Positions 22,872 through 57,990 of a DNA stretch of 64,000 bases are shown here, one piece after another. The notes under the pieces are model-generated. The model did not search any database. It saw only the letters and a list, made by a program, of their open reading frames with translations, and was not told the origin of the DNA. Position 1 is the first letter of the stretch. The number at the start of each line of letters is the position of its first letter. A program made the position numbers and the translations under genes. This stretch comes from Hexactinellida sp. DTS-2022 (lineage: Eukaryota > Porifera > Hexactinellida). The stretch spans positions 2,666,001-2,730,000 of the forward strand of contig JAPNXP010000005.1 of assembly GCA_028753945.1 (NCBI GenBank), in the 5' to 3' direction.

Positions 22872-23549
22872 TCAGTGGCGGCGAGATGGGGCGCTAGCCC
22901 CATCAACATTTTTTGTTAACCCCATCAGTTGATGGGGGGCATGGGGCTGAGATTATACTAAACATGTAAATTTTCATAATACCTCTATTTTAACACTGGT
23001 ATCGTCCAGTCATCTTTACTTCAGTCTAGTAACTCATTTTCAAATTACTATTACGTATATAGATATGGCGTATTTCCCCAATAAGCGCTGGCTCTTATTC
23101 ATACCCATTAGTTGATAATTGAATTGTAATTACATTGATTTAGGAAATTTCGGTATGTTTACTGTCGTTGAAAACCATAATAATCCACCTACAGTAGAAC
23201 CTCGTGAATACGAACACGGGATCGTCAAAATTACTATTTAAGTCCCCTTCAAGGCCTTTTCAATACAAAAGGTATCGGTTAATACGAATTTATTGAAACT
23301 CTTCCATTTTAAATACCTAGTTTGAAATCTCAGTTGAATTTATTTTATTTTAATTTTAAAAAATATGAGTTAATTTACTATCCTGGATCGGAGTAGTTTT
23401 CCATAACTTTATTGGTATTTGTTTCATTATATCTTTAGTTTTGATCGGTTAAGATCAATCGTTTATTAATAGACTTATGTATCAGGCTGAATCTATCCTT
23501 TCGACAATTGTCAAGACTAATTTTCTATTTACTGATTCATCATTTACTT
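22872..23549. other. MITE relics upstream of WDR3
   Basis: A one-ended hAT MITE relic starts at about 22874 (CAGTGGCGGCGAG). A one-ended pogo-type relic starts at 23192 (CAGTAGAACCTCGTG after TA). The last 150 bases before the WDR3 start are AT-rich and may hold its promoter and 5' UTR, but I see no definite TATA box or initiator. Confidence 0.45.
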
Positions 23550-34853: not shown

Positions 34854-35558
34854 ATGGCAATGAAAGCTCGTGCAAAGAATTTCTCAGATGAGATTACACA
34901 GCTAGTTGACCTAGTTCTAGAGAATAAGTCCAAATTATTTGGTGCCTTAGGTTCATCTCTCTCTTATGATGAAAATAATAAGATTTGAGAAGATATCGCC
35001 AAAGAATTATCACAGAATGGAACTTTCTGGAACAAAGAGGATGTCTCCAATAAGTGGCCGAATGTATTGGCTAAGCATAAGCCAATAATCTGTGAGAAAG
35101 CCTCTTCAGCTCGAAGGACTGGTGGTGGCTCACCTACAGCCGAACTAACAGAGTTGGAGGCCAAGTTAACCTCTATTAAGGGAAAGGAACTTTTTGAAGG
35201 TGTCGTTGGAGGCATTGATATTTCCAGTATATCACCAATTTCCCCATTGAGTGACTCTGATATGTCGGTTGTTGGAGAAATAAATCCACCAAGAAAGCGT
35301 ATGTTTTTTGATGAGAGAAGCAATTTAACTGATCCTGACACAACACTTAAGAAGGCTCTTTTAGAATCTGAGCAAGAGAAGACTGCTCTTTTAAGAAGCT
35401 TCGATGCGAAGATGGATAAGATGGTCGAACTTTTAGAGAGACTAGTTGGCATGAATCAGTCATCCAACACGATGCCTCAGCTATATCCACACATACAGCC
35501 TAATTATTTACATTATCCTCCAAATTTTATCCATCAAAATTATCCTAGTAATGACTAA
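34854..35558 (+). pseudogene. Harbinger Myb/SANT-like DNA-binding protein, one stop
   Basis: In Harbinger elements this partner protein binds the element ends and brings in the nuclease. From ATG at 34854 the frame runs 234 codons to a TAA. It has a trihelix/SANT-like N-terminus (FSDEITQLVDLVLENKSKL..., then EDIAKELSQNG, VSNKWPNVLAKHK, the Trp-containing third helix), an acidic/Ser-rich middle, and a C-terminal helix KMDKMVELLERLV followed by a Pro/Tyr-rich tail. A TGA at 34986-34988 interrupts at KI*EDIAKEL, where relatives usually have Trp, so it is probably a single TGG to TGA change. Otherwise intact, so the element died recently or survives on trans help. Confidence 0.78.
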
Positions 35559-35662
35559 TACTACTTATATATGCTAATACATATATTTACTATCAAATTC
35601 AAATAAATTCTTATTCTGTTTTAATTGAAATACTCTGTAACCACAGACTGCCGCACTATAAT

Positions 35663-36640
35663 TCATGAATGCGTATTGGTATCGGGAGGTTCAATTATAT
35701 CATCCTCTTCGGCAGTAATATTTGTCTCCAATTGTAAGCCGTGATCAATACAGATATTGTGCAATACCATAGTAGCAACTACCATTCTGCATACTCGTTC
35801 GGGAGAATAGCACAGTGTACCACCTGTTTTGTCCATAGATCGCCGCCTACTTTTCCTCACACCAAAAGCGCACTCTATTTTTTTTCTGGTATTCACAAAG
35901 GCTCGATTGTAACGTCTCTCTCCAGGAGTTGTTGGAGAAATTATCGGTGTTAGAAGGTTTGTTCTTAGTGGATACCCACTATCACCGAGCAACCAACCAC
36001 TGACACTCGGGATTTGTCCAGATTCAATTTGGCGATGTATTCCAGATTCTCTCCATATGAAGGCATCGTGAGTGCTACCAGGCCACTTGGCGACGATGTC
36101 GATGAATTTCAAATTACTATCGCATATCGCCTGAATATTTATAGAATTGAAATTCTTCCTATTCACATATACATCTTCATTCTGTGGTGGTGCCAAAATG
36201 GGTACATGCGTACCATCAATACACCCAATAACCTTCGGAAAGCCGTATCTTTCGTAAAATCTTTGTTGGTGTATCAATTGGCCAGTTTGATTTGGAAATT
36301 GTACGAATTCTCTAGCACAGGAGCAAAGTGCTTCAGATACAGTCCGAATACATCGGGAGACTGAAGGCTGAGATATCCTATGTGATGATGCTATCACTGT
36401 TTGGAAAGTTCCAGTAGCTAAGAATTGAAGTGCGACAGCTAATTGAGTAGAGGAAGCAATTGGATGTGACCGAATAGTTGATCTATGTAAGAAGATTGAA
36501 ATTTTCTCTTCAAGATTTACAAAAATATGCTTTGTAACTCTGTAACGTGACAAAATTCAACATTGTTATATACATCCAACGGATTCAACCTATCCCGAAA
36601 TACTCTCTGCGTGATAGACTTTGGGAAGAATAAACCTCTA
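35663..36640 (-). pseudogene. HARBI1: HARBI1-like DDE nuclease (Harbinger transposase)
   Basis: It cuts and inserts the Harbinger element. The main frame (36553 to 35663, 296 codons) holds the DDE_Tnp_4 fold: CIDGTHVPI (first Asp), WLLGDSGYPL (second Asp), RKKIECAFGV (Glu), an N-terminal helix-turn-helix region (RISQPSVSRCIRTV) and MVLHNICIDHG near the end. All three catalytic residues are present. The frame has no ATG at its left limit (first codon TTG). Upstream, about 36630-36555, the neighbouring frame encodes VFRDRLNPLDVYNN, the usual residues just before this point in HARBI proteins, so one base has been lost at about 36555. Hence I mark the gene broken, though most of the catalytic domain is open. 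Confidence 0.85.
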
Positions 36641-38426: not shown

Positions 38427-38474
38427 AATCCAAAATTGCAGCCTGTGCCGACGCATGTTCCTTTGGTGGCACTA
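38427..38474. repeat. Half palindrome, copy 5 of 9
   Basis: Only the left arm (ATCCAAAATTGCAGCCTGTG to GGTGGCAC) is present. The right arm is replaced by the minisatellite that starts here. Confidence 0.8.
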
Positions 38475-39195
38475 AAAAGGTTAATGGTACACCAAACAGG
38501 TTAATGGTACGGCAAACAGGTTAATAGTACCCCGAAAAGGTTAATGGTACACCGAAAAGGTTAATGGTACTACGAAGCGGTTAATGGGACGCCGAATAGG
38601 TTAATGGTACACCGAAAGGGTTAATGGTACGCCGAAAAAGTTAATGGTACACCAAACAGGTTAATGGTACGCCGAAGAGGTTAATGATACACCAACCAGG
38701 TTAATGGTACGGCGAAGAGGTTAATGGTACACTAAACAGGTTAATGGTACACCAAATAGCTAAAAGGTTACGGCAAACAGGTTCATTGTACGCCGAAGAG
38801 GTTAATGGTGCACCAAACAGGTTAATGGTACCCCGAAGAGGTTAATGGTACACCAAATAGCTAAATGGTACGGCAAACAGGTTAATAGTACCCCGAAAAG
38901 GTTAATGGTACACCGAAAAGGTTAATGGTACAACGAAGCGGTTAATGGTACGCCGAAGAGGTTAATTGGACACCGAACACGTTAATGGTACACCAAAGAG
39001 GTTAATGGTACACCAAAGAGGTTAATGGTACACCGAAGAGGTTAATGGTACACCAAACAGGTTAATGGCACGCCGAAGAGATTTTTGGTACGCCGAGGAG
39101 GTTGTTGGTACACCAAACAGTTTAATGGCACGCAGAAGAGGTTTATGGTACACCAACCAGGTTAATGGTACACAAACAGGTTAATGGTACGCAGA
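38475..39195. repeat. GGTTAATGGTAC minisatellite, about 36 units of 19-20 bp
   Basis: Units alternate between GGTTAATGGTACACCAAACA and GGTTAATGGTACGCCGAAGA. A block at 38502-38580 recurs at about 38872-38950, so there is a higher-order period near 370 bp. The array lies in the left foldback arm. Confidence 0.9.
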
Positions 39196-39832
39196 ATATT
39201 TGAATGCTAGTTCTATCGATTCTTTAATTTGATTTTAATTTGATTTTAATTGCTTTGACTTTTTCTAATTAATTTTATCCTTTGATTTAATTCATTTTCC
39301 CTGCGTACCTTTAACATGTTTTGAAGAGGTATCCTTATTTAATTAATTTAATTTAATCCGTTGTATTGTAATACTACAATTAAATAGAAGCCAGCTCGAA
39401 TTCACAAGTTAAATCAATGTAATTATCGCAAGTTAAACAATAGTGAAAGATTTAACAAGTTAAATCAATAATTTTTTTACAAGTTGAAACAATAGAATTA
39501 GATTTAACATTTTCAATGGAACTCGTTAGTGCCACAATAGAGTGCAAGTTTCCTTTGTTTACTAACACTTCAAACCCAATTTAAAAATTCGTGCACTGTG
39601 AAAAGGTGAGAATTTAATTCTCTATTCGTCCATGTAAAATTTATCAAGCTCAATAATAATTATTTCATTTTATGAGCCATAATTAGTTTAAATAGGTGTC
39701 AAAATAATTTGATCAAAATTCGTAACCCCAGGTGCAAATTAGACGGTCACTCCGCACCTGCATGCCAAGTTTCAGCCCTCAATGTATACAGGTGTGGCCA
39801 GGGCACCGTCTACGGAGAAAAAATGATAATAA

Positions 39833-39959
39833 AAAAAATCCAAAATTGCAGCCTGTGCCGACGCATGTTCCTTTGGTGGCACTATATCTTGTTGGTGGTT
39901 TATTGAAGTGCCTCCAAAGGAACATGCTGTCAGCACATCTGCAATTTTGGATTTTTTTC
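39833..39959. repeat. Long palindrome, copy 6 of 9
   Basis: Stem as in copies 2-4. The right arm has CTGTCAGCACATCTGC in place of CTGTCGGCACAGGCTGC. Confidence 0.85.
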
Positions 39960-40792
39960 GCCATGTCATCAACGCCTCAAGGTGTCATGATCCATTTGTT
40001 AATTAATCCGAGCCACAAGGAACGGTTGATAAATTTGAAGTTTGTTTCTATCACAAACCATCTTGAGTTTAATGTCATTCATTCATTTTGTATTGATAAT
40101 AAATTATATTATTAGTTATTTATTTGAGCAATGTTATCCACGGTGATTTGAGTAAAGTCAATAAATTCCTTATATTATTAGATTTTATTTAATCCATTGT
40201 ATAGTAATACTACAATTGAATAGAAGCCAGCTGGAATTTATAAGTTGAATCAATATAATTATCGCGAGTTGAATCAATAGAGTAAGATTTAACAAGTTAA
40301 ATCAATAAAATTATTACAAGTTGAAACAATAGAATTTGATTTAACAATTTTACTGAAATTGAAGTGTGAGTAAACAAAAGAAATTTTCAACTCAATTGTG
40401 GCACAAACTAAGCCCAATTTTTAAATTCGTGCACTGTGAAAAGGTGTAGAATTTAATTCTCTATCCAAATATGCAAATTTTATCAAGCTCACTATTTATT
40501 ATTTAATGTTATGAGGTATAATTAAATTAAATAGGTGTTAAGAAATTTTGAACGGAAATCGTAACCCCAGGTGCAAATTAGACGGTCACTCCGCACCTAC
40601 ATGCCAAATATTAGCCCTTAATGTATAAAGGTGAGGGCAGGGTACCGTCTACGGAGAAATAATAATAATAATAATAAAGGCAGTGATTCCAATACTGGGC
40701 CACTATACTATAGTATAGTCGGCACAGTAAAAATAAAGGCAGTGATTCCAATACTGGGCCACTATACTATAGTATAGTCGGCACAGTAATAA

Positions 40793-40917
40793 TATCCAAA
40801 ATTGCAGCCTGTGCCTACGCATGTTCCTTTGGTGGCACTATATTTTGTTGGTTGTTTATTGATAGTGCCTCCAATGGAACATGCTGTTGACACAGGCTGC
40901 AATTTTTTTTTTTGCCA
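40793..40917. repeat. Long palindrome, copy 7 of 9
   Basis: Same stem. The right arm ends in a T run that replaces TTTTGGATTTTT. Confidence 0.85.
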
Positions 40918-42284
40918 TTAAATGAACGCGTCAAAGCGTTTTGTTAGACTCGTCTATCAAGTTGTTACCGGACAAGGAGGAATTATAAATTTGAAGTTTT
41001 TTTCTATCTTAGACCATCTTGAGTTTATTGCTCATCATTAATTATGTGATGCTATTAAATTATATAAATAGTTATTTATTTTAGCAATGTTATCCACGAT
41101 GAGTTGAGTTGAGTCAACAAATTCCTTATATCATTTATTTAATTCAATCCATTGTATATACGTACTACAATTAAATTGAAGCCAGCTGGAATTTATAAGT
41201 TAAATCAATATATTTATCGCAAGTTGAAACAATAGAGTAAGACTTAACAAGTTAAATCAATATAATTATTACTGTGTCGACTATACCAGTACTTCTCATA
41301 TTTTTTCATAGCTAACAGAGGTGAAGGCTCCTGCAGTGGATATTTTTCAAATGCGTAGAAAAAGAATCTGACATAATTTTTCAATGTCCCATATATTACG
41401 AATACAATATACATTTTTCTAGACACACTATATTGCTATTTACTATGGAAATTTTTACTTTTGGTAGGGGAGTGTATTGTGGAAGATAAAATTATGTTTG
41501 AATTTCACGAGTGTGAAGTTGGCGCAGTATTCAACTGAGCACAGATGAAATCCAAATTTGAGGCCCTTCCCACAATTGGATTTGGCCAAAAATTACAAAC
41601 CTTAAAGGGGAGATAGGGACGTTTATGATTATGGATAAAAAACTTTTAATTTTTATATTATTTTACAATATGTCTGAGCACAAAAAAATCTTTTTGACAA
41701 CTATTTTTCGAATTTGAATTTCAAACTTTGGAAAGTTTGTATACATGTTTGTGACTACGGGACGTTTCTTATGTCAAAAATATGGATAAAAATATGAATT
41801 TTCCTAAGAAATACAATTGAAATAATTTAGCATTTATTCACTATTCACATCAGTACCCTTTTAATTCATTTTCATCTGAGCATACTTCAAGTTATATTTT
41901 TAGACACTTCCCATTGTTGGATCTGGACAAATTATTTATTATGAATAGAGGAGGTATGGACGTTTATGTATATCTAAAGAAATTCAAATGCTACAATTTT
42001 TTTGCATTTTTTTTCGAGCACGACAAAAATAATTTCAAACAAAAACTTTTTCGAAATTGAATTTTTAACTTTGCATACATGTTTCTAAATATTGGATGTT
42101 TGTTATGTCAAAATCTTGTTGGAAAATATTAATTTTTGTCTGAATTACAAATTATCAAAAGTTGAATATGTTTTTAGTTATGATACGTACTATCTGTTTA
42201 TTGTGATTGAGTGAACAAGCCTACTTAAAGCTACTATATCTTCATCTATTTGTCGATAATTTGGTAATGATTTAATCTATATTA

Positions 42285-42350
42285 GCGTTCGCGTTAGTGA
42301 GATGTGAGAGAGTACCTCCGAGTAGCGACTGAGTCCGTAGGGCTCGTAAC
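42285..42350 (+). mobile_element. Helentron 3'-end fragment
   Basis: It ends GTCCGTAGGGCTCG, like the 3' ends at 30021 and 54370, preceded by GTAGCGACTGA in place of the usual hairpin. It lies between the left arm and the transposase gene. Confidence 0.4.
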
Positions 42351-42874
42351 ACTTATTAGTCTCAAAACCAATCATTCTGATAATTGGATGAATTAACTAA
42401 ATTAACTCGTTAACTATAATAAGACAATATATTATCCCTCCGGGTCGCTTCTTTTGCTACTGCTTCTAATTCTTTACTAATGATTTCATCAATAATTGTG
42501 ATATCACATGAACAATCCTTTGGTGTATTTACTGTATTATGTGAATGATTTACACTCAAGATATGTCTTCCCATGTTTGATTCAATACTATTGTTAGAAT
42601 ACAACCTCAAGATTGATTGTTTATTTGTAACATCCACAACCAATTGCAACCAGATGGTGCATAGTCGAAACAAATATCACCCACCATTCCCTCTGCAAAT
42701 TCATTTCCATAAATACCTTACCAAGATTTATTAATCTTATTATAAATCTTATTCTGCTACATAAAACTGACAAATATTTTATTCAAATTATATACTAAAC
42801 GATACAAAGAGTCAATGGACAAAGGTGATCAAGGTAACTAGTAACTACCGATTTCATTTTAATCACTAATTATT
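42351..42874. other. 5' region of the foldback transposase gene
   Basis: An 87-codon minus frame (42410-42673) has no recognisable domain. No clear TATA box. It probably contains the promoter of the gene starting at 42875. Confidence 0.35.
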
Positions 42875-45800
42875 ATGAAGATTTCAATTTATATCAATTT
42901 TATGTATTCAACAGCCTTACCCACCGATTTAGCCATCTTTCTCGCCTTTTGTAAAGCCAGAGACCTGAGCCCTGAAGATCTAACTACAAGCTGTAGTATT
43001 TCTCATTCTGTTTGGGGCGATTTATCAAAACACATTTTCGGAAGGAATAGAGCCGATTTAAGGAAAAAGTTATACCTGAAATGGAAGAATAATTCCAAAA
43101 ACATCTTTAACAAAGTGAAAGATTATGGTCTCAACACATCTGGTAACAGCTTCCAGGTATGTATTAGCTTAGAGTTACTTTCCATTGAGAAGATAACTTC
43201 CTTATTAACTTCAACTATACTGAGAGATATTTGTGCTAGATTGCAGGGAGTTAACTTAACTGCCAATTTACCACCCAGTCATTTTGACTTGGCAAAAATT
43301 GAATCAGAATTATTAGGATGCGATAATAGTCTAATCATCTGCTCTTCTGTTGCCTCTGATTTAGAAATATATGATAGATTCAAAAACAAATACAAAGATG
43401 TTCCCCTTGATTCTGAGAATAACTTGGGACAGCCATTATTTCACTCCTTTATAAACTATGAATCGATATTATGGCTAGACGGCTATAACTATTATGACTA
43501 TAAAGGTCCGAAAATAATTCCTGGCTTTATACAATTTTCTGAACTTATTCAATTTAATGCATGCAAAGGATTTGAAGATTCGTTGATAAATAAGTTTACT
43601 GATAATCTCATTGAACAATGTACGTTAATTATCCTATGGTTAGCATCCACAACAGAGGTATTTAATGGCCAGAATTATAGGTTAGTAAGTAACTTATTCA
43701 ATAAAAATTATATACTATTCAGTAGTGAAATGCTAACAAATTTTGTTCATTGGGTAGAGAAGTTAAAAACTGATTTTGAAAAAAATGGTATGGAGGTTTT
43801 GGAATCTATTTCCGCATATGGTAATAGTGGACTAGAAAAAAAGACGCAAATTTTGCCTTTAGAGAATATAGATAAAGCAGGTGAAAATGAAAATATTGAT
43901 AATGTTCATATTGAATTTCCAATATCTAAAGGAAACGAAAACAGCACTTATGAGGCGATTAGTCTTCAAACAGTTGGCGAGTTTTACCTAGATAAGGAAG
44001 ATTGGAATGTTATAAGTTATTTAGATATTGATAATATAAATCGTATGAATGAAGAAGGTTGGACTAATGTAATAGCTGAAAAATATTCTGAAATCAATTC
44101 GATATGTGTACTCAGGTTCAAACATTTTTGGTTTAAAAAAACTGATAGTAGGAAATTGAAATCTCCTTTTTTTCATGCTTGGGCTGTGTGTAAATTTTCT
44201 AACTGCATTTCAGTTACCTTTTCAATTGAAAATAATTTTATCTCATTTGGTGGAGATATAATAACCGTGCAGTTTAAATCCGACGGTCTTTCATTAGAAC
44301 ACAAAGATGACTAAACTATTCATGCGCGCCACATTACTTCTGGACGAAGAGAAAAAATCGGTACAAATTTGATGCTAAGCTCAGTGGGTAATATATTTCA
44401 TCAGCGATTTAGAAATGATAACAATGTAGAGGCATTCAAGAGAGGGAATTTCACTAATCTAATCTCGCAACAAACTTTAAGACGAATTAAATCAGACGCT
44501 AAATCTATATAAAGATTTACAAATTATGATTTAGTAGATATTTTTGAATTTCAAAGGCATTTCCGCTCTGTATTACCAGATGATCTAATACCTGGTTATG
44601 TTCAATATATCGTACAAGAGCCATTTATAATCCATTTATATGCAAAAAGACATATTGAAATATTCAAATTATTCAAACATGACAACATCGTTCTTAATAT
44701 AGATGCAACTGGTTCCATTATCAAAAGACCACCAACGTGTAGGAAACCTATTTATTATTATGCTCTTACATTGCAACACCCTGTATACTGTACTAGCCCT
44801 GTGCCTGTTGCAGAAATGATCAGTAGTGATCATGGTACTGCCGAGATCACCCATTTTTTGAATAAGTGGGTATTAACTTGTAAGGTAGTTCTACATAAGG
44901 ATTTGCGTATTGACCAAATTGAAATGGACTATAGTTGGGCCATAATGCATAGCACATGTTTAGCATTTAATAAACTGAGTATAGCATTATATCTAACTAA
45001 ATGTTGGGAAATTATAAACAATAAAACTAGTACTATGTCAACTATAACAACTGTTTTACATCTCTGTTCGGCACATATTATGCATCGAATTAGTTATCAA
45101 TTAGATAATAATTATAAAATAGACGAAAAGGTAAAACGCTTAGTACTGCATGCATTCGGTACTATGGTAAAAAGTAGCAATTTTGAAGAAATAATTCTCG
45201 TTTTCGAATCTTTGTGTACTTTGCTCACTACTGAATTAATGTCACCTCAAGTTACTAAGAGTTTAATAGATTTAGAAGGATTAGTTAAGGGAGATGTTGA
45301 AATGAATAGTCCCCAAAGTTATTTTCTAGATGGTTATCCCGAAAATATTGAAGTGATACTTATAGAAAAATGTCTCCTTTCGGAAGATACTTTGAAGAAT
45401 TGTACCATAAGACCACTACTAAAAATTTCAACACAAAAACTATTGGCCAATAATAAAAATTTATGTTATTATCCCAAAATTCTGGAATATCTGCTAAATT
45501 ATTATTTGCCATTGCTTCCTCTATGGAGTGGAATCATCCTAAGTAGAGTAAAAGTAAACGGAATTTCAACTGATAGTAATGCAGAAGTCGAAAATTGGTT
45601 TAAAATAGTCAAATACTCGATATTTAAATCACAAATTAATATCAGAGTCGGTGATTTTGTACGTCACATTTTTGCATATATTGAGGATAGATTGGCTTCT
45701 TTTAAATTCGCATTTCAACCATTGGGTCAAAGAGTATTTAAACGTAAAAAAAGAACTCTGGAGGCTAGTAACGAGCAAAATTGTAAAGAGATATGGGTAA

Positions 45801-46108
45801 GAAGGAAAAAAAATAAAAATAGCTACATTAATCCAAACACAAGTCAAATAGATAGGGTTTTTTCGAAATTAAAGGGATCTAATTTTCAAAATTCCAAAAC
45901 CTCAATTAATGTCACTATCGCAAAAAATCCAACTGCTAAATGTTCCTTAATAACCAAATCAGAAAATGTTTCAAAAACACAAATACCAATACCAGCTGGG
46001 GATTTTGAAATCATAACTGACCCGGATATAGTAGCACTGGGTACAGTTTACGTTCTTTTTCCTCCTTTTAAGCCATTTTCACACTTAGGTGAAGTTAGGT
46101 CAGGTTAA
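42875..46108 (+). pseudogene. DDE transposase-like gene, about 1,078 codons, two stops
   Basis: The 479- and 445-codon open frames and the DNA between them are one reading frame from ATG 42875 to TAA 46106, broken only by TAA at 44312-44314 and 44510-44512. A Cys/His segment near residues 435-490 (VCKFSNC ... EHKDD, then TIHARH after the first stop) resembles a WRKY-GCM1/FLYWCH-type finger. The core follows: NIDATGS (Asp 1, about residue 609), EMDYSWAIMHST (Asp 2, about 683), CSAHIMHR (C-x2-H, about 730), SNAEVENWFK (Glu, about 905), then a Lys-rich tail. D-D-C2H-E order is that of Mutator and related RNase H-fold transposases. I cannot assign a superfamily with certainty. It lies at the centre of the foldback element, followed by an OTU gene. 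Confidence 0.68.
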
Positions 46109-46161
46109 TTGTTGCAAACTTTTAGGCTTACCTTTAGTAAATGTAGTATGTTGTCAAATAA

Positions 46162-46674
46162 AGTGTGATAACAATAGTTTCGAAGGACATAAACTTAAGT
46201 AAACTACTTCCCTCAGTAACATTTAAAATTCCCGGTGATGGAAATTGTTTATTTTCAACTCTTTCATATATAACTACTGGTAGCATATACTATAATCACA
46301 AAATACGTATTATTATTATAAATTATATTATAGGAGAGTTGAGCCAAATAGTTCATTCAAAATAAATTCCCACTTACATTTCGCCTTCAAAAGATTATAT
46401 AACTAAATCGAAAATGCATTTAGACAGAACATGGGGTGGGGACAGTGAATTATTTTCAATAGCTTTGTTATTAAAAACAGATATTTGGGTGAATTCTACA
46501 GAAATGGGAAATAAGTGAATTGTTTATTCGGGTAAGGGTGCAAATTTGAGTGATATAATGAGTACCCCTCCAGCTAATGAAGCAGGATCGTGCTATATTA
46601 AGCATACCGGGGACCATTACGAACCGATATTGGAATTACATCATCATATTACATCTGATAATTTATCAAGTTAA
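46162..46674 (+). pseudogene. OTU-family cysteine protease-like gene, two stops
   Basis: OTU enzymes cleave ubiquitin-type conjugates. The frame has the catalytic Asp/Cys box PGDGNCLFSTLSY (about 46230), a middle WGGDSELFSIALLL, and the catalytic His box HTGDHYEPILEL (about 46600), all in one frame, ending TAA at 46672. In-frame stops are TAA at 46363-46365 and TGA at 46516-46518 (NK*IVYSG, probably a former Trp). There is no ATG at the start: an in-frame TAA precedes 46162 and the first possible codon is GTG, so the gene was either spliced or fused to the transposase gene 50 bp upstream. Length (about 170 codons) fits a bare OTU domain. Its role in the element is unknown. Confidence 0.75.
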
Positions 46675-46990
46675 TAGTATAAAAATAAAAATACACAAAA
46701 AATTAAAAAAATAGAAATGTATCTATAAAAAGTACATAAAAGAAAAAAATTACAAAAAATATATTTAAGTTTTATCTATTAGACATGATATTTATTATAT
46801 TTGTTATCTACGTATTATGCACTATTATACTCTATACAAGGCACTGATTTTTTGGCATGACGTTAGATAAGCATCAATTAAATTAGCTAATTCAAATCAA
46901 CTATTCTTTCTCAGTATTAAAGTTAATTTAAGGAAGTTTATTTAATTGGAATGTAATACTGATCTAATGCTACCTGAAGGATTTCAGCCG
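46675..46990. other. AT-rich 3' region
   Basis: A-rich tract after the OTU gene with several AATAAA-like words. Nothing else recognised. Confidence 0.35.
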
Positions 46991-46995
46991 GCCTC

Positions 46996-47345
46996 CATCT
47001 TATCAAAAACCCTTTCCATCAATCAACAATTCTCCTTAATCCTTAATATAATAGTTCTCTTTCTGTTAAGCACATGCACAGCTTGTAGTTCATTTACTAT
47101 AATTACAACATTGATTTTCTTCAAACTGTTCACCTCATACAAAACTATTTCATCAATCAACAATTCTCCTCAATCCTTAATATAATAGTTCTCTTTCTGT
47201 TAAACACCTGCACATGTTGTAGTTCATCTATTACAAAAGATGGATTATTCTTCAAACTATTCATCTCATCAAAAACCCTTTCCATAAATCACCAATCTTT
47301 CTCAATCCTGAATATACAAGTAATAGTTCTCTTCATGTTAAATAC
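46996..47345. repeat. Three tandem units of about 135 bp
   Basis: Each unit carries TTTCCATCAATCAACAATTC, AATCCTTAATAT and ATAGTTCTCTTTCTGTTAA. The units drift to about 80% identity by eye. Any open frame here follows the repeat. Confidence 0.7.
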
Positions 47346-47596
47346 CAGTAAAGCTTCAAACGCAAAAATATATCTTTATAACTAATTGCATTAATAATAT
47401 TGAATAATGCACCACCTTAAAACCGTTAATCTTCTGAATGGAATATTTTGGAAACAACACACACCCACGCATTATCATTATCATTATTTGGCCGCATTAA
47501 AGATAGCCATCCTATGATTATCTACTAAAACAATGAGACTTGGTATAGATTGATAAATTTTCCTCCAAACAAGACACTAGATCCTAAAATCTACAT
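47346..47596. other. Unassigned DNA in foldback centre
   Basis: No recognisable feature. Confidence 0.3.
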
Positions 47597-47958
47597 TAGA
47601 CCTCTTCGCGGGTCGTATGCGGGTCCCGCCCCGCAAAACACAGTGCTATAACCAAAGCAACCCGCATCCAACCCACAATAACCAACCCGCAACCCGCGTG
47701 TCAACATAATATTCGCAGGTATTACGTTGAGTATTCGAAATCTAGATGGTGCCCAATTAAAATAGCAATATACTTGATTCAGTGACTCCAAATTACTCTC
47801 AAGTAATTCTCTTGCAACTAACCAACACAAACCCGCAAAAAATCCGTGACCCGCACCCGCCCAGTCCCCCAAATACTCAGATCATTTGACCTGCAAGAAC
47901 CCGCGGGTTGGCGGTTCAGCTACCCACATTTATTAACCCGCCCCGCGTAGAGGTCTAA
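47597..47958. mobile_element. CCCGC-rich MITE, 362 bp
   Basis: The ends TAGACCTCTTCGCGGG and CCCGCGTAGAGGTCTA are inverted. Many AACCCGC units fill the inside. The flanking duplication is at most AT/TA. Confidence 0.65.
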
Positions 47959-47999
47959 TATACGGCAACCAAATTCGAGATATACATCTTCAAACGTAA

Positions 48000-48180
48000 G
48001 CAAGAGAATCATAAAGGGGGGGCAAGTTTTATGTTGTGGGGGTAAGTGCAGGGAGTCGGGGGGGCAAGTGGGGGACGAATCACTCTATTTACTATAACGA
48101 ACACTTCCTAATTCTCTTGGTAGGGGGGGCGAGAAGTACTTTTGGGGGGGCGGTCGCCCCCCCGTAGCTACGTGTCTGTG
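48000..48180. mobile_element. G-run-rich MITE relic
   Basis: The right part ends CCCCCCCGTAGCTACGTGTC, resembling hAT MITE ends. The left end was not found. Confidence 0.35.
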
Positions 48181-48296
48181 CAGTATACATGTTGACCAGA
48201 AAATACGAAACTAGCCTGTATATAAATGATAATGGTGAAGACAAATAGGGAAGGGAAACTTATAATAAACCATTATCGAATTATCACCAACTAGAT

Positions 48297-48439
48297 CAGT
48301 GGTTCTCAACTACTTTTCTCTCGCGACCCCAAGCGACCCCAACATGGGGTTCTTGGGGTCGCTCCCAACATGGAGCGACCCCAAGAAATATTAATGGCGA
48401 CCCCACATGGGGTCGCGACCCCGCTGTTGAGAACCACTG
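48297..48439. mobile_element. hAT MITE, 143 bp
   Basis: The ends CAGTGGTTCTCAAC and GTTGAGAACCACTG are perfect inverted repeats, flanked by a perfect 8-bp duplication AACTAGAT (48289-48296 and 48440-48447). The inside repeats GCGACCCCAACATGGGG. Confidence 0.93.
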
Positions 48440-48464
48440 AACTAGATGAATATGTAGCCACTTA

Positions 48465-49718
48465 TGCTTGTTCACTAGATCATAATAGAAATATATAATT
48501 TGAAGTAAATACATGTCCAACTTTGCCAAGCTATATCTCATAGGAAAATTAATATTTTTATCCAAATTTTTGACATAAGAAACGTCCCATAGTCACTAAC
48601 ATGCATGCAAAGTTTTAAATTCTATTTCGAAAAAATTGAAGTTAGAAGATTATTTTTTTAATTGCTCACTCATTATGTAAAAAACTAAATACAAAAAATA
48701 AAAAATAATACATTTTTATCCATAATCATAAACGTCCCTATTTCCCCTTTAAGGTTTGTAATTTTTGGCCAAATCCAATTGTGGGAAGGGCCTCAAAATT
48801 TTATTTGATCTGTGCTCAGAGTCCGTTGAATACTGCGCTTTTAGAAATATATAATCTGAAGTAAATACATGTTCAACTTTGTCAAGCTATATCTCATAGG
48901 AATATTTATATTTTTTTGAAATATTTTGACATAAGAAACGTCCCATAGTCACAAACATGTGTGCAAAGTTTTAAATTCAATTTCGAAAAATTGTTCTCAA
49001 AAAAAAATTTTTTTTAGTGCTCAGACATTATATAAAAAAATTAATGCAAAAAAATATTTTTTTACATTTTTATTCAGAATCAAAAACGTTATCTCCCCTT
49101 TACGGTGTGTAATTTTTGGCCAAATCCAATTGTGGGAAGGGCCTCAAGTTTGGATTTCATCTGTGCTTAGTTGAATACTGCGCCAACTTCGCACTCGTTT
49201 GAATTTCACGTTACTGTTTTATGTTTGCAGGATTGATGAAATTATAGCTGCTTTCTAGGAAGTAGATTATGTGATCATCATCTGATAATTTTTGGAAGTG
49301 AGGGAGATTTCGATATTAAATTATAAACCTTTTGGCAATTAACAAATGTTCAATTTAGCCTAGGTTTGTGCCATAATTGGGGTGGCAATCTCCTGTGTTT
49401 CCTCACACTTCAGATTCAGTAAAACTGTTAAATCTAATTCTATTGTTTCAACTTGTATTAATTATATTGATTTAACTTGTTAAACCTTACTCTATTGTTT
49501 CAACTTGCAATAATTAAATTGATTTAACTTATAAATTGCAGCTGGCTTCTATTTAATAGTAGTATTACTATACAATGGATTAAATAAAATAATATAATAT
49601 AAGGAATTTGTTGACTCAACTCAACCAACCGTGGATAACATTGCTAAAATAAATAACTAATAACTAAGTTGTTTAATACGTCTTTTATTAGTCACGTATT
49701 ACGTATAATACGTATAAT
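48465..49718 (-). repeat. Right arm of the foldback element, inner part
   Basis: Read on the minus strand: partial palindrome-unit sequence (49718-49360), then two tandem inner units (49205-48845 and 48840-48465), each with GCGCAGTATTCAAC, GGCCCTTCCCACAATTGG, AAAGGGGA and TGGGACGTTTCTTATGTCAA, matching the left arm. It ends CTAGTGAACAAGCATAAGTG. Confidence 0.72.
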
Positions 49719-49979
49719 GTAATACCATAGCCTACTCTATATAAGGCCTACCATCAAAGCTGATATTTTGCACCAAGGATGAAGTAGTGTACGATATTAT
49801 TATTGACCCATAGTTATTTACATCTATGTCTGTACAGTTAGAAATATTTAAAAATAGTTGGATCAACTTGTTGTTGATTTTTGTTAATTTTTAGTAATTA
49901 ATTAATACAATTCTCCTTCCACCGATATTTTAAGCACTTCCTAGTACTATATTTGACTTTGTTTCTTTTTAATAGTTAC

Positions 49980-52788
49980 CAGAAGAGCGCGTCCCAGTTT
50001 TTGAACTTCCAGATGGTCCACCTGAGTTACGACATGCCTGGATACGTGCTCTCCATCATGAGGATATTTCTGACCTCAAAATGGTGTATGTGTGTGCTAA
50101 GCATTTTCCGAAGGAAGATATCAATATTTTCACACGGTACCCAGAGGAGATGGCACGTCCTATGAGGTCCCGCGAGGAAGACCCAAATTAAATCCTGGCG
50201 CTGTCCCCTCTCTCCTTCCTGGTTGTCCGTCTTATTATTCCTCTACCCCTTTAATTAGAATCAAACGAACTTTGTTCTCTTACGACTCCAAAGAGGAAGA
50301 TTTATTGAACCAAGCAACTTATCTCAGCTTGAGATCAGAGAACACAATGGAGAAGTTTCGTGTTGGTTGTATACAAGAAATACGAGATAAGTTAGCTTTG
50401 ATAACAATCCCAACTGACTGGTTAGTTTGGATTCAAACAGATAATTATGTGAGATTTTTTTCCTAAGATGGAAAATCATAATATTTGTGCAGATGTTTCT
50501 CTTGAAATAAATTCTTTTTTATCTGTGAACGGATATATATATGGGAAGTCCATTTCTCTCTCACTTTTCTCACACTGATATTCGACAAATTGAAACGATG
50601 TTTACAGAGATTACTCTGAAACTTAGCTCTTCCCCTCAGAATAAACATCCTCACCATATCTCTAAAGCAAAAGAACATATTGAGGAGGCCATATCTAATC
50701 TATTAGATAGTGATGAAACAGAATCCAATTGTTCCGATTTGCCAAGATTACAATTTATTCTTGGCCAACTAGAGAATGTGGGTATTTACATTAAGAGAAG
50801 GAGATAAAATGTTATTACACAAATTCTGGCCATAAAAACGCATCTGGTTTCTCCTGCAAGTTACAAATTTCTCCAAAGTTCAGAATGCATTTCTTTTCCA
50901 CATGTTCACATACTAGAAAAGTTGTACTCTTGTTTTGGGCTGGAAAACGACTCTTGTACTTACCTTAGCCAGGTAACTTCTTCTTTTAGTTCTCAAGAGA
51001 AGAATGTAATTATTCAGATGGATGAGATCCACGTTAAGTCTGATATCTCATATAAGGGTGGGAAAATATTTGGTCCTAACTTATCCCCTGAAAACCCCAC
51101 AAGAACTGTATTTGCTATCATGGTTTCTAGTTTACACAAAAAATGGTCCTGTTTTTCTCGTTTGATACCTTGCGCATCTATATCTGCTGAATACCATTTT
51201 CCTATAATTAAGTCTTGTACTTTGGATATCGAATCTAGCGGTTTGAAAGTACAGATCATTTCTATCGACAATTACCCTTTAAACGTGAACTTATTCAAGT
51301 TATTTTCTCCAACTAAACAGTTAGAGACTAGTGTACCACACCCTTCTGATAATAAAAGAAAACTCTATGTTACTTTTGACTTTGTCCACATTTTGAAAAG
51401 TATTCGAAACAACTGGTTGAATCAGAAAGATATTCGGAAAACCTTTCACTTTCCCAACTTTCAGAACATTATGCTGGACTACTATGTGTATCCTGTTCAA
51501 GTTTACTCTGCATCTTTTAGTGATGTGCGTCTCCTCTATAATTTAGAGAAATAATCCTTAGCTAAGTTAGCTCCTTGCTTGACTATCAAAGCTTGTTATC
51601 CTTCTGCTGTTGAGCGCCAAAATGTGAAGCTTGTTTTGAAAGTATTCAACGAATTACCTGTTGCAGCTCTGAAGTTACAGAATGAACTCCGTAACCAAGA
51701 AGACCGAAACAATACACACGACTTTGTTGAAATGCTTCTTCAAATTTGGAAACTGTTCAACATAAATTCCCCCACTTAAAGGTAAACGTTTGAATGATGA
51801 TATTTCAAGACCTCTAACATACATACCAGGACGAACGATTTTCATTCTTAGCTTGTGTTGTTATTTGGTTAGAGACTTGGCTGGCCTTGCCAGGAAATGT
51901 AGGAAAGTTAAGTAAACTAACGTTTACCAGTTTTAAACATGCATGTACTGTATTGCCTCAGATAACTAACCATTTAACTGGATTTTGTGGATTTAACTAT
52001 CTTTTGACATCCTTTTACAGACAGATCCATTGGAACATCACTTTGGCCTATATCGTATGGTTTCAGTTTCAAACTATCATATCTCGTATATTCAAATCCT
52101 TGAAACTGAACGCCGCCTCAAGTTATCCAACATATTAAAGATTTTACTTCACAACAAGATTGTGGCTTATATTCAATTCAGACATTTATTGATTCATACT
52201 CATCCCTTGATACGAATATTGCGATGAAATCGATGATAAACTAGTCTGGGATGAAATTGATGATCTAACTTCCATTGAATGTAGTTTATAGACTCTTCAG
52301 TCATTAGCTTTTATTGCTGGTTATGCAGTACATAAATTATTTAAAAAACTCAGCCATATCATATTTGCATTGATCTTTTTACCATTGACAAATACTTTAT
52401 CTTTGATGAAGATTCATAACCCGAGTTCAGGCTTTTGCAATTAACTGACCGTGGTGGCCTAAAGTATCCATCTGAGTTTATCCTCGAATCTATAGTAACT
52501 TTATGTAAGACTTTAATTGAAATTGAAAGCAAAGACAACTTGTTGGCGATGTTGATGCAAGAATCATCCAGAAAAATTATTGTGGATGTAACCTTGATAT
52601 TCTTAGAAGAGACTGATGCGATTGCTAAATCGAGTTGCATTTCTTGTGGTGTCCTATTTTGACTATCCTAAAAAATCTTATTTTCACTTGCGCCAACTGT
52701 TTACTAGCTAACAAGGTTAAAAATTATAACTCCGCTGTTGCATCTAAAGGAATAGAAAAGCGAAAACTGAAGAAGTTCTCACATTAAT
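49980..52788 (+). pseudogene. P/THAP9-like transposase, copy 2
   Basis: Segments in order are: the second half of a THAP domain (VPVFELPDGPPELRHAWIR, VVYVCAKHF-like CAKHF), a frameshift, PKLNPGAVPSLLPGCP (AVPxxxP box); YKFLQSSECISFPHVHILEK; IIQMDEIHVKSDISYKGG (first Asp); ISIDNYPLN (second Asp); TFDFVHILKSIRNNW; LPGNVGKLSKLTFTSF; DPLEHHFGLYRM (Glu, split by a frameshift from its upstream part); LTDRGGLKYPSE; and a C-terminal KRKLKKFSH tail ending at 52788. The first THAP cysteine pair is not seen. Several frameshifts and stops make it non-functional. Residue order is the same as in the copy at 7929-17582. Confidence 0.87.
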
Positions 52789-52792
52789 GATA

Positions 52793-54981
52793 CGAGCCCT
52801 TCGGTCTCGGTCGCTTCGCGACGGATCACTCTTTCACAAAAGTCGCTTCGCGACTTTTGTTCGTTCGTGTTAGGCACTACGCGATACAATTAACGGCCGC
52901 TTCGCGGCCTTTCCCTTCCCAAAAAGCTATAATAATACTAATGAGTTCACCTGTGGCTAGTGAATTACACACTATTACTTAATAACGCGTGCCTAAAATT
53001 CATTTTGGGTTGTGATTACTGTAATTTGTCTGGGGAATTATGTTGAGTAAGTTATTCTCATTGCTCAATAGTTATTAATTATTAGTTAATTATAGCTCAA
53101 TAGTTCTTAATTATTTTCAGTAAATTATATTGCAAAGTAATTTACTAACTCTGGGTGTAATCTCTCCATAATAATGGTTTAAAGATGAGTTGCAAAATAT
53201 TTGATTTAATAGTAATAAACATTTATAGATCCTACCATAAACAATTCATTTTTCAGGAGCTGGGTTAGTGAATTATTTAATTTAATTGATAGCAATAATT
53301 AATATAATAAATCTCGTTAGGCAGAACCAAAATCCTAGATTACTTAACTTAATTCATTTCTAGTAGAAATCCTAGGTTCCATTGATAGTCATAGTAGCCA
53401 ATATAGGTGTAATCTATCTATATATTAAAAGAGGAATTGTTGTGTGTTTGTTTGTTTGTTTGTGTGTTTGTGTGTTTGTGTGTTTGTGTGTTTGTGTGTT
53501 TGTGTGTGTGTTTGTCCAGAATTAATAGGAAAGACTACGAGTCCTAGAAAGCTGAAAATTGGCATGCAGGGGTAACTTTGTACTGCGACAACGATCTATT
53601 GGTTTTCTAAACAAAATAACGGGATTATGACGTCATAAACGCACATATTTGGGAATGGCTCTTTCAGTTCTTATCCGATTCGGCCACAATTTTAGATGGC
53701 AAGACAACATGAAATGAGACACACGTATACCGATTTATGGGATTGTGACGTCACGTACGAACTAATTTGGATTCAGCTCTTACATTTTTGATTCAATCGT
53801 CAAACAATTTTGTCACGTTATAAAACAGAATGTGTTGCATGTCTCTAGAAATCTTTATAATTTTCGCATTTAATCTGAGCCAGGCAATAACAAAAATGTA
53901 ACCCTCAATTGCTGCGTCATCGCACATATTGAGGTTTTATGATTTAATCTCACCTACATTATTTCCGAAATTGCATACTTGATTAATCCAGTTTGGCTTC
54001 CATCAGTTTATTTATATTCGTGATGTATTTAGCTTACGTCAATCACATAAGCATAATATTACTATCAAAGTAATTCAACTATTTACAAACAATTTACTAC
54101 TATGCTGTTAAATACCTGGGTTAGTAAATAACATGAATTAATTAATTACTTGACATACTGGGGTCCCAAATAGCAGCATACTGAATTGAGTACGTGTAAT
54201 TTACCATTCACAGGCTTAACATATTTAATATGAGTTATATTTGAGGAGAGTAAGGCCGCGAAGCGGCCGTTAATTGTTTTGCGTAGTGTCTAATACGAAC
54301 GAACAAAGGTCGCGAAGCGCCCTTTGTGAGAGGGTGATCCGTCGCGAAGCGACCGAGAACGAAGGGCTCGTAAATAAATAATGCATTAGAGACTCTAATA
54401 TTATGCATACTTATGTAATTGACGTAAGCTAAATACATCACGAATAGAATAAACTGGATTAATCAAGTATGCAATTTCGGAAATAATGTAGGTGAAGATT
54501 AAATCGTCAAACCTCAATATGTGCAATGACGCAGCAATTGGAGGTTACATTTTTGTTATTGCCTGGCTCAGATTAAATGCGAAAATTATAAAAAGTTCTA
54601 GAGACATGCAATACATTCTGTTTTATAATGTGACAAAATTATTTGTCGATTGAACCAAAAGTGTAAGAGCTGAATCCAAATTAGTTCCCACGTGACGTCA
54701 CATTCCCATAAATCGAAACACGTGTGTCTCATTGTATGTAGTGTTATCATCTACAATTGTGGGCGAATCGAATAAAAACTGAAAGAGTTATTCCCAAATA
54801 TGTGCCTTTATGACGTCATAATCCCGTTATTTCGCTTAGAAAACCAATAGATCGTTGTCGCAGTACAAAATTACCCCTGTATGCCAATTTTCAGCTTTCT
54901 AGGACTCGTAGTCTTTCCTATTAATTCTGGACAAACACACAAACAAACACATCCACAACAATTCCGCTTTTAATATACAGA
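52793..54981 (-). mobile_element. Helentron-like He1, copy A (contains copy B)
   Basis: Reading leftward from TCTGTATATTAAAAG (54981) through TTTGTCCAGAATTAATAGGA and TGACGTCATAAAGGCAC, it is interrupted at 54371/53416 by copy B, then continues to the 3' hairpins GGCCGCGAAGCGGCC and GTCGCGAAGCGAC and ends GAAGGGCTCG at 52793, five bases after the transposase stop. About 1.24 kb without copy B. No Rep/helicase gene. Confidence 0.68.
53417..54370 (+). mobile_element. Helentron-like He1, copy B
   Basis: The start is TCTATATATTAAAAGAGG, followed by a GTTTGTGTG run (53445-53515), then the same block order as copy A, ending in hairpins GCCGCGAAGCGGC and GTCGCGAAGCGAC and AACGAAGGGCTCG. Because it lies inside copy A in the opposite orientation, roughly 570 bp of near-identical inverted repeat results. 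Confidence 0.7.
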
Positions 54982-55486
54982 TACACCAGAAGGCTACTCT
55001 TCTATTATAATTAATTGTTATTATTATTGTTATTTGAACCCACATTATTCTTTATGTATTCTTATCATTGTTGTTAAGCTTAGTGAGCAATAAAAACTCA
55101 ATAGAGAAAATCTATTAATTTACTAGAATTATTTATTTTAACAGATTAATTTCTAAATGAAGTTGAAAACATTGAACTGTATTTACCACTTTATCATCGT
55201 ACACTACTTCATCCATGGTACATTTGATGGTAGGCCTTATATAGAGTAGGCTATGGTAATACGTATTATACGTATACCTTACAAATAATATCGAGCTCAT
55301 GGAATTTGCTTTTAACAACTTTTGGTTTAATCGTTGTTCTTTTATTGTTAATCGACTCGTAGTTTAGTTTGTATAGCACAAATATGATTATTTGCTAGAT
55401 GTTGTATTTCAACAAGAATTACAAATATTCTATTGAATTTACTTCGAAAACATCCCTGGTTGATCATAGATTTAACGTATAACACG

Positions 55487-55911
55487 CAGGGCCGGCTTTA
55501 GGCACAAGCAACCGCGTGGGGCGCCATGATTAGGGAGCGAAAAATTGAGGTCATTATCTGGAAACTGAATTGAACACCAATGTTTGGATCCCCATTTCTA
55601 GTTCTGTTTTTATTTCCTTTGAGTAACAATAGCTTTGATTATTTTGTTTACTTTTAGATCTTGTTATTTAAATTTTATACCCTTAATCAATTTAACTACA
55701 AGCATTGTCAAATAAAAGAGTTAGATAAGTCAAATTTTGTCGCTTCACTGACTATTATACCTAGTATAGTACCCAGATTATTAGAAGATTGACTAGATTC
55801 ACCTTCATGTTAGTAAATTAATTCTAAATTACATAAATTAGTATTTTATGGAAAACTCGGGACGCCAAGATACTTTTGCGTGGGGCGCCGAAAGAGCTAA
55901 AGCCGGCACTG
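55487..55911. mobile_element. hAT MITE, 425 bp
   Basis: The ends CAGGGCCGGCTTTAGGC and GCTAAAGCCGGCACTG are flanked by ATAACACG and ATAATACG (7 of 8). Both subterminal regions carry GTGGGGCGCC. It lies in the foldback right arm. Confidence 0.85.
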
Positions 55912-56106
55912 ATAATACGTACTGGTGGAACGCATATTAAACAACTTAGACTAATAATATAATTTATTATCAATACATAATGAATGAATAGCATTAAACT
56001 CTAGACTGTTTATGATAGAAACAAACTTCAAATTTATCTACCGTTCCTTGTGACACGAACCAATTAACAAATGGTTCTTGACACCCTGAGGCGTTGGTGA
56101 CTTGGC

Positions 56107-56231
56107 GAAAAAATCCAAAATTGCAGCCTGTGCCGACAGCATGTTCCTTTGGAGGCACTATCAATAAACCACCAACAAAATATAGTGCCACCAAAGGAAC
56201 ATGCGTCGGCACAGGCTGCAATTTTGGATAT
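56107..56231. repeat. Long palindrome, copy 8 of 9
   Basis: Reverse orientation relative to copies 2-7 (GACAGCATG arm first). Followed at 56237 by the TGTGCCGACTATACTATAGT micro-palindrome. Confidence 0.85.
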
Positions 56232-57055
56232 TATTACTGTGCCGACTATACTATAGTATGTGGCCCAGTTCTAATCTTACTGCCTTTATTGTATATTATT
56301 ATTATTATTATTATTATTCTTTCTCCGTAGACGGTGCCCTGGGCACACCTTTATACATTGAGTGCTGAAACTTGGCATGTAGGTGCGGATTGACCGTCTA
56401 ATTTGCACCTGGGGTTACGATTTTTGATCAAATAATTTTAACACCTATTCAAACTAATTATGGCTCATAACTTTAAATAATTAATATTGAGCTTGATAAA
56501 TTTACATGTACGGATAGAGAATTAAATTCTACACCTTTTGGCAAATCACAAATGTTCAATTTGGACTAGGTTTGTGCCATAATTGGGGTACCATTCTCCT
56601 GTGTTTCCTCACACTTCAGATTCAGTAAAACTGTTAAATCTAATTCTATTGTTTCAACTTGTAATAATTATATTGAATCTAATTCTATTGTTTCAACTTG
56701 TAATAATAATATTGATTTAACTTGTTAAATCTTACTCTATTGATTCAACTCGCGATAATTATATTGATTTAACTTAGAAATTGCAGCTGGCTTCCATTTA
56801 ATTGTAGTATTACTATACAATGGATTAAATAAATATAACTATATAAGGAATTTGTTGACTTAACTCACTCACCGTGGATAACATTGCTAAAATAAATAAC
56901 TAATAATATAATTTATTATCAATACATAATGAATTAATGGCATTAAACTCAAGATGGTTTATGATAGAAACAAACTTCAAATTTATCTACCGTTCCTTGT
57001 AACTCGGACCAATTAACAAATGGTTCTTGACACCTTGGGGCGTTGATGACTGGGC

Positions 57056-57181
57056 AAAAAAAATCCAAAATTGCAGTCTGTGCCGACAGCATGTTCCTTT
57101 GGAGGCACTATCAATAAATCACCACCAAAATATAGTGCCACCAAAGGAATATGCGTCGGCACAGGCTGCATTTTTGGATTT
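57056..57181. repeat. Long palindrome, copy 9 of 9
   Basis: Reverse orientation, same stem as copy 8. Confidence 0.85.
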
Positions 57182-57720
57182 TATTATTATTTTTATTTTT
57201 ATTATTTTTCTCCGTAGACGGTGCCCTGGCCAGAGCTTTATAGTTGATGGGCTGAAACTTGGCATGTAGGTGCGGTGTTACCGTTTAATGTGCACCTGGG
57301 GTTACGATTTTTTATTAGCAAATTTTGGACACATTTTTAACAAAATTTGTCTTGTCCATAACTCAAAAAATGGTTTACTAGCCCCCAAATTTTTATTTCA
57401 CCATTGGATTCATCTTAAAATTCTGCGTCTGATAGGTGAAGAAACCTTAAAATGGGTTTAATTTCTGCCATAAATGGGGTTTGAAATTTCTTTGTTTACT
57501 CACAATTCAATTTCAGTAAAACTGTTAAATCTACTTCCATTGTTTCAACTTGCGATAATTAAATTGATTCAACTTATAAATTCCAGCTGGCTTCTATTTA
57601 ATTGTAGTATTACTCTACAATGGATTAAATAGAATAAAATAATATACGGAATTTGTTGAGTTAACTCGCTCACCGTGGATATATTGCTCATATAAATATC
57701 TAATAATATAATTTATTGTC

Positions 57721-57990
57721 AGAAATGTGTCCAAAATTTGTTAATCAGGAATCGTAACCCCAGGTGCACATCTGTAACCCACGAGACACCTGTTCTACAA
57801 ATTTGGGTTTTTAGTTTATTAAACTCTGTTCTGTGGAGAGGATACGGACCATTAATAATAATAATGATAGTAATAACTAACCAAGGCACTAATATTAGAA
57901 CTGGGCCACTATACTATACTATAGTCGGCACAGTAATAATAATAATTTACCTAAGCACTAAGACCAATACTGGGCCACTATACTATAGTA
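57721..57990 (+). repeat. Arm-unit tail with two micro-palindromes
   Basis: CGTAACCCCAGGTGCACATC and CTCTGTTCTGTGGAGAGGAT match the end of the unit at 21.8 kb in plus orientation. Two copies of GGCCACTATACTATA..GTCGGCACAGTA follow, like 40696-40790. Confidence 0.6.

Follow-up and report, generated by a model that had tools for sequence, protein, structure and literature searches.

A nest of three transposable elements in a hexactinellid sponge, one of them from a DDE transposon family with a predicted transposase-OTU fusion

The DNA analysed here is a stretch of 64,000 nucleotides from the sponge Hexactinellida sp. DTS-2022, referred to as the window (C14:2,666,001-2,730,000 of a 112-Mb genome in 18 contigs), and its main subject is a group of inverted repeats and genes lying within 38-58 kb. 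Self-comparison of the window shows two sets of inverted arms in this region. An initial annotation, made from the sequence alone, took everything in 38427..57990 as one very large foldback element encoding a DDE transposase-like protein and an OTU protease-like protein. The repeats and the coding stretches are real, but target site duplications (TSDs) and empty insertion sites refute the single element. The region is instead a nest of three: a foldback in which no gene was recognised, a 7.7-kb DDE transposon in its spacer, and a P-type element in its right arm. The transposon belongs to a family whose intact members are predicted to carry transposase and OTU in one protein. We hold this reading as a whole, nest and fused family together, with high confidence.

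Layout of the nested elements

The features that define the nest are as follows, in positions of the window.

39332..41272, plus strand: left arm of the outer foldback, with two ~950-bp units containing 130-bp palindromes
49315..49663, minus strand: right outer arm, inner segment, severed from the remainder by the P-type element
55950..57721, minus strand: right outer arm, remainder
41507..49198, plus strand: Mutator-like element (MULE)/Rehavkus-like DDE transposon with a transposase-OTU coding region, a dead copy of 7,692 bp with ends ACGAGTG...CTCGT and a 9-bp TSD
41498..41506: left 9-bp TSD of this transposon, TTGAATTTC
49199..49207: right 9-bp TSD of this transposon, TTGAATTTC
49664..55949, plus strand: P-type element with 15-bp terminal repeats CTAAGTTGTTTAATA, holding other repeats and inserted in the outer right arm
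49656..49663: left 8-bp TSD of the P-type element, ACTAATAA
55950..55957: right 8-bp TSD of the P-type element, ACTAATAA

The three elements are regarded as separate because TSDs of 9 bp and 8 bp stand at the two junctions. When the flanks of the 7.7-kb element are joined, they find uninterrupted matches at 26 places in the genome, counting those with at least 80 bp to the left of the junction, and at 31 when shorter left parts are included (46 match rows, of which two come from the halves of the window itself). Once both inserts are removed, the outer arms align straight over the P junction (82% over 1.6 kb).

Each of the ~950-bp tandem units of the outer arms holds a palindrome of ~130 bp. 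The initial annotation had described inverted arms of tandem palindromic units, with inner units of ~345 bp placed round a centre of 6 kb, and the self-comparison agrees with it in this. It had also assigned the outer arms to the same element as the genes, and here it fails, the outer unit being a repeat dispersed over the genome, which gives 3,332 first-look candidates where the transposon core gives 58 (40 were scored in each search). For these arms, this is the kind of result that the initial annotation had itself named as refuting. No gene was recognised in the outer foldback, the short frames of which were not scanned. Another inverted arm pair of the same repeat family lies at 2,349-4,008 and 19,351-22,051 of the window.

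The P-type element contains a piece of a P-type transposase at 50,808-51,551 (Pfam TNP-like_RNaseH_N, E 2e-9), which is absent from the initial annotation. It also contains a 456-bp inverted repeat, 92% complementary, at 53,495-53,950 and 54,496-54,951; relatives of this repeat are found at 29.0-30.0 kb of the window, and it is probably another small nested element. The P-type load of the genome is heavy, with 2,374 first-look transposase candidates in 112 Mb (150 scored).

Coding region, relatives and ends of the DDE transposon

Within the 7.7-kb element the following features are seen.

41507..42251, plus strand: left inverted arm, with two tandem units at ~41,530-41,816 and 41,871-42,150, 68% alike
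42863..46108, plus strand: transposase frame, with two internal stops
44,186: CX4C finger of the transposase; then D1 in IDATGS at 44,699, D2 in IEMDYSW at 44,918, LHLCSAH at 45,056 and E in SNAEVENW at 45,575
46207..46638, plus strand: OTU cysteine-protease-like domain, with GDGNC at 46,234 and HYEP at 46,615, interrupted by stops and in a different frame from the transposase
47006..47346: short tandem repeat before the 3' arm, of period ~134 and ~2.3 copies
48440..49198, minus strand: right inverted arm, with two tandem units at 48,486-48,838 and 48,842-49,183, 83% alike

The transposase is a single frame with two stops, a finger motif of the form CX4C...H...H and the catalytic motifs D-D-C2H-E, just as initially annotated. 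The OTU-like stretch downstream of it is likewise real: it is 49% identical to the OTU of an intact relative, L035 (E 3.1e-39), with two stops inside. It is not a separate gene, as had been supposed, but corresponds to the C-terminal domain of the intact relatives. The copy in the window is dead, having stops in both transposase and OTU, with the fusion broken by stops and a change of frame.

Intact fused frames are found elsewhere in the genome. Transposase and OTU lie in one frame of 1,028 amino acids (aa) in the closest copy (identity 93% within the part used as query), of 1,260 aa in L035 (45-46% identity) and of 1,078 aa in L019 (37%); for c13a, L019 and L035 the fused frame was read directly. 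At 57 of 78 transposase places an OTU is present less than 1.5 kb downstream on the same strand. Where the transposase frame is at least 600 aa long, OTU is present in 36 of 45 places, and in 30 of the 45 the transposase and OTU rows give the same frame length to within 60 aa, which was taken to mean one open frame. On the strength of these intact fusions a separate OTU gene was rejected, and the intact product is predicted from them to be a single transposase of ~1,250 aa with a C-terminal OTU domain. The initial proposal that the OTU, the DDE transposase (not of P type) and the inner arms of tandem units make up one element is upheld, and the pairing recurs genome-wide.

The OTU assignment is made by Pfam (PF02338, cut-off 23.3 bits), with 34.5 bits in L035 (E 3.5e-8) and 23.7 and 23.5 bits in two others (E 7.3e-5 and 8.2e-5). 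Against the PDB all matches are weak; the best (E 1.7e-5) is a chain deposited as an RNA-dependent RNA polymerase, followed by four OTU-domain chains (E 0.007-0.085). The catalytic Cys and His are kept in all ten aligned proteins (two of which, L043 and L044, are near-identical), and the DGNC motif in nine of them, with GNGNC in the remaining one. In the transposase, the D, D, E and CSAH core is equally well kept: D604, D679, C723, H726 and E900 are invariant in nine aligned proteins (alignment A3). The ratio of nonsynonymous to synonymous substitution (dN/dS) between L019 and L040 is 0.25 for the DDE part, 0.26 for the linker and 0.12 for the OTU, which indicates purifying selection on DDE and OTU in this one informative pair. 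The open copies include four OTU-bearing frames of 1,260 aa that are 99-100% identical (L035, the query, being one of them) and seven 1,255-aa transposase frames. Given such near-identical open copies, the family looks to have been recently active in the host genome.

In L035, a first exon is inferred at 1190-1409, joined by GT...AG to the sequence from 1468 onward and in frame with the transposase. It encodes, after a hydrophobic stretch, LLVIGGIEINPGP, which we take to be a 2A-like motif. The motif N[PAS]GP was not found at the start of the transposase in 12 other sequences searched.

The 7.7-kb element begins with ACGAGTGTGAAG at 41,507. For comparison of copies, 10 further genomic loci of 20 kb were retrieved. 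At least one end motif is present in eight of these, with c16 and c12 being partial copies, and the four that have both ends are flanked by perfect 9-bp TSDs (ACTATTAGA, TTGTTTGAT, CTATCCATT and GGCTTATTA). The initial annotation had proposed reading the TSD length on other copies, and it comes out as 9 bp in all eight elements for which both outermost ends were found (the window, c14b, c15a, c1, c9, a second family in c10, L035 and L033).

The ends themselves vary. The L019 element, of the second family and with the 1,078-aa open frame, carries a pair of ~322-bp units, 97.5% alike, at one end and a single unit at the other, with a 9-bp TSD of ACTATTTAT. L035 has plain ends of 712 bp, 99.3% alike, and the TSD AAGATTTAT. 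At the other extreme stands L033, a deletion derivative whose arms, 1.8 kb long, are built of 190-bp units and whose new outer ends are flanked by the 9-bp TSD AAACTAAAG. The arms are found in both orientations at 14 places (99 match rows), with the core giving the same 71% match at 11 of these and a slightly higher score at a twelfth. Because ends range from plain (L035) over two-unit to arrays of 190-bp units (L033), the foldback arms are a variable state of the ends of this transposon family. It is worth adding that L033:1653-7475 has the character of a young non-autonomous foldback derivative, in which 190-bp unit arms enclose older ends and a truncated transposase, and that it is met at 13 further places.

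Classification and alternative explanations

A range of 8-11 bp is usual for the TSDs of MULEs, and a CxxH between the second D and the E marks MULEs among others. Both features are present here, with a 9-bp TSD and a DDE core having CxxH in that position. The combination of a 9-bp TSD with tandem-unit inverted ends, which is of the Rehavkus type, is seen in the window, in the c10 element and in L033. Table rows on MULEs in one paper give TSDs of 9-11 bp (PMC6446971). Taken together, the 9-bp TSD, the tandem-unit ends, the D-D-C2H-E core and the finger motif point to the Mutator/Rehavkus group.

Several results weigh against this assignment, or against the wider reading of a nest with a fused family. 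Pfam scans were run with cut-offs of E 0.1, 1 and 10 (HMMER's filters drop most weak matches), and at none of them did a transposase or zinc-finger model match the protein. The profile search against DDE families proposed in the initial annotation gave no Pfam transposase, although OTU was matched in relatives. With hhalign, one comparison to MULE transposases gave P 0.23, and one to four conventional MULE proteins of the same genome gave P 0.2, aligned at the second D, on shallow profiles (Neff, the effective number of sequences, ~2.5); a P-type control gave P 0.29, which scarcely differs from 0.2, and the result is not significant and does not place the family. A single-sequence structure model of the window transposase piece has a pLDDT (the model's own confidence measure) of 35 and is uninformative. 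An OTU row is lacking for nine of the 45 long frames, where the domain is possibly lost or too diverged. Only one protein pair is informative for selection: L043 and L044 are too similar (linker dN/dS ~0.9; OTU dN 0.006 and dS 0), and the remaining pairs are saturated. The long ends of L035 have no tandem units, so that the foldback structure is not general, and the older inner end pair of L033 is flanked by inverted copies, with no direct TSD. Finally, pieces of the outer-arm repeat occur somewhere within the retrieved 20 kb at seven of the 10 loci; a common repeat would be expected to do so, but it also shows that the repeat and the transposon often sit close.

Other null results bear on the name. 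There is no match to the MULE model PF10551, though 961 first-look PF10551 candidates exist in the genome, and the family is not filed as a proven MULE. A PHD finger was not matched in Pfam scans of L035 (E up to 10) or of L019 and L010 (E up to 1), for which reason it is called Rehavkus-like and not Rehavkus. The FLYWCH finger has a WRKY/GCM1-type fold. Together with a Pfam MULE domain, FLYWCH is a feature of Phantom elements (PMC3169594), and neither model matches here. In a viral scan with the transposase alignment, 13 stretches were matched by pattern and none is a relative.

These negatives leave some room for the transposase to belong to a DDE lineage outside Mutator/Rehavkus, undescribed at the superfamily level and with convergent 9-bp TSDs. 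It would explain why the Pfam transposase models fail to match and why profile comparison with MULE and P proteins of the same genome is not significant. However, the profiles compared were shallow, and the 9-bp TSD, the long tandem-unit ends, the CxxH and the CX4C...H...H finger are all Mutator/Rehavkus-like; we consider a lineage outside the group unlikely.

A Galileo-like origin of the outer arms, as the ends of a P-type foldback into which the 7.7-kb element was inserted, is much less probable again. A P-type transposase does lie between the outer arms, and P-like DNA (66-68% similar) at 8.2-9.9 kb of the window is also between related arms, though the frame in that DNA has no Pfam match. 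But the P-type element is delimited by 15-bp ends of its own, its 8-bp TSD lies within the arm repeat, and P-type genes are so common in this genome (2,374 first-look candidates) that co-location is cheap. Its transposase is not part of the foldback ends, and a Galileo-type origin was rejected on the TSD.

It is slightly more doubtful still that the OTU is a fragment captured from the host, in the manner of Pack-MULEs, and not a working part of the transposon protein. Mutator elements do carry gene fragments (PMC6431247), but a captured piece would hardly share its open frame with the transposase in 30 of the 45 long frames, over lineages down to ~34-37% protein identity, nor be under purifying selection, as appears to be the case in the single informative pair.

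The least credible explanation is the one first proposed, a single foldback element at 38.4-58.0 kb that carries the two genes and is mobile as a whole. The genes are indeed flanked by inverted arms of both the outer and the inner kind, and outer-arm pieces recur at most retrieved loci, but the inner and P-type elements are each bounded by their own TSDs, the insertion sites are found uninterrupted elsewhere, four other copies have 9-bp TSDs right at the inner ends, three of the 10 loci (c14b, c1 and c13b) have no outer-arm piece, and candidates for the arm unit far outnumber those for the core.

A bolder view of the fused transposase-OTU family may be put forward tentatively. The family would be an abundant and recently active animal DDE lineage that present Pfam models for transposases fail to see, and may stand next to Mutator and Rehavkus as a new major branch. 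With its constitutively fused, predicted OTU deubiquitinase it would have its own tool to deubiquitinate itself or the host repair machinery, and its ends could grow into foldback arms by unit duplication.

The rest of the window contains a host gene in a single frame of 725 aa at 23,445-25,622, matching WDR3 (Pfam E 6.9e-111). In this genome the gene for ribosomal protein L3 (RPL3) is also a single exon, and the two suggest an intron-poor animal genome. The RPL3 protein has its best scores with ribosomes of animals, which agrees with an animal host. A PIF/Harbinger-type DDE_Tnp_4 transposase (E 1.6e-32) is present on the minus strand at 34,989-36,556, beside a plus-strand frame. Direct repeats of 203 bp, 98.5% identical and 2.1 kb apart (12,912-13,114 and 15,217-15,419), are possibly a short element of the long terminal repeat type.

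Possible mechanism and known systems

The family inserts with a 9-bp duplication, has one fused frame, keeps the catalytic residues of both domains and is present in recent copies. A mechanism can be outlined in which the N-terminal zinc finger, WRKY/GCM1-like by motif only, would bind the units of the inverted arms, and the DDE core would cut and paste with a 9-bp stagger. The OTU domain may then remove ubiquitin carried by the transposase, or by host factors where insertion takes place, and in this way protect the complex from degradation or help repair. A repair-linked role has been suggested for such proteases (PMC2836005), and protection from degradation for related domains (PMC9741609). 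Tandem duplication of end units would lengthen some ends into foldback arms, the extreme being the deletion derivative with its 190-bp-unit arms.

On several occasions transposon proteins have acquired a protease of the ubiquitin type: Ulp1 in Mutator, OTU or Ulp1 in Ginger1, and OTU or VTD in Helitrons (PMC2836005, PMC9741609). As of 2022, the activity of transposon OTU domains was described as untested (PMC9741609). A family with near-identical open copies and a fused OTU would offer a clean system in which to study deubiquitination in cut-and-paste transposition. Several stages of end growth can also be seen among the copies in this genome (plain long ends, two-unit ends and 190-bp arrays), and the origin of foldback arms may be read from them.

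Foldback-like Mutator ends, and OTU in Ginger1 and Helitrons, have been published already; what we did not find in print is their union with this kind of transposase. An OTU fused to such a transposase was not found in the literature searched, which leaves out most subscription papers and the Repbase reports. Helitrons and Helentrons carry OTU or VTD deubiquitinase domains, of which VTD was tested in one study and OTU not (PMC9741609). They resemble the present family in having a deubiquitinase-type domain within a transposon protein, but are rolling-circle elements with Rep/helicase and no DDE transposase. Galileo and other P-type foldbacks (PMC3573991) share the foldback arms, and a P-type gene is also found in the nest; here, however, the P-type element was inserted separately and is bounded by ends and an 8-bp TSD belonging to it alone.

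Ginger1 elements, which are DNA transposons of animals, have a DDE transposase that ends in an OTU or Ulp1 domain (PMC2836005), and in the C-terminal OTU they match the family described here. Their DDE domain is Gypsy-integrase-like with a GPY/F motif, in contrast to the C2H-bearing DDE and 9-bp TSD of the present elements. For Mutator elements, the text consulted in the same paper names Ulp1 as the protease and does not name OTU (PMC2836005).

Mutator elements with foldback-like ends are known in Tm1 and Phantom (PMC3169594). In the 496-aa transposase of Tm1, Pfam recognises a FLYWCH and a MULE domain; the paper contains no occurrence of OTU (PMC3169594). The likeness of Phantom and Tm1 to the elements here lies in the 9-bp TSD, the foldback-like composite ends of variable length, and a WRKY/GCM1-type finger with a Mutator-type DDE. 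The difference is in the protein, which is ~1,250 aa here with OTU fused and neither Pfam model matching.

Also close, by description, is Rehavkus (Repbase 2006), which is counted as a sister group of the MULEs or as one of them and has a 9-bp TSD, a PHD finger and a minisatellite (PMC6446971). The PHD finger was not found here, and no OTU fusion is mentioned for Rehavkus in the text consulted. Its terminal inverted repeats are 26-400 bp, against ~430-760 bp here and 1.8 kb in L033, and its minisatellite before the 3' end compares with a small 134-bp tandem repeat in the window element. One member, Rehavkus-1_TC, has 164-bp satellite units in its inverted ends (PMC10218199) and a length of 9.5 kb, against 6.3-7.7 kb for the elements here. 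Rehavkus and the present family have in common their animal hosts, the 9-bp TSD, a single open reading frame and tandem arrays in the inverted ends.

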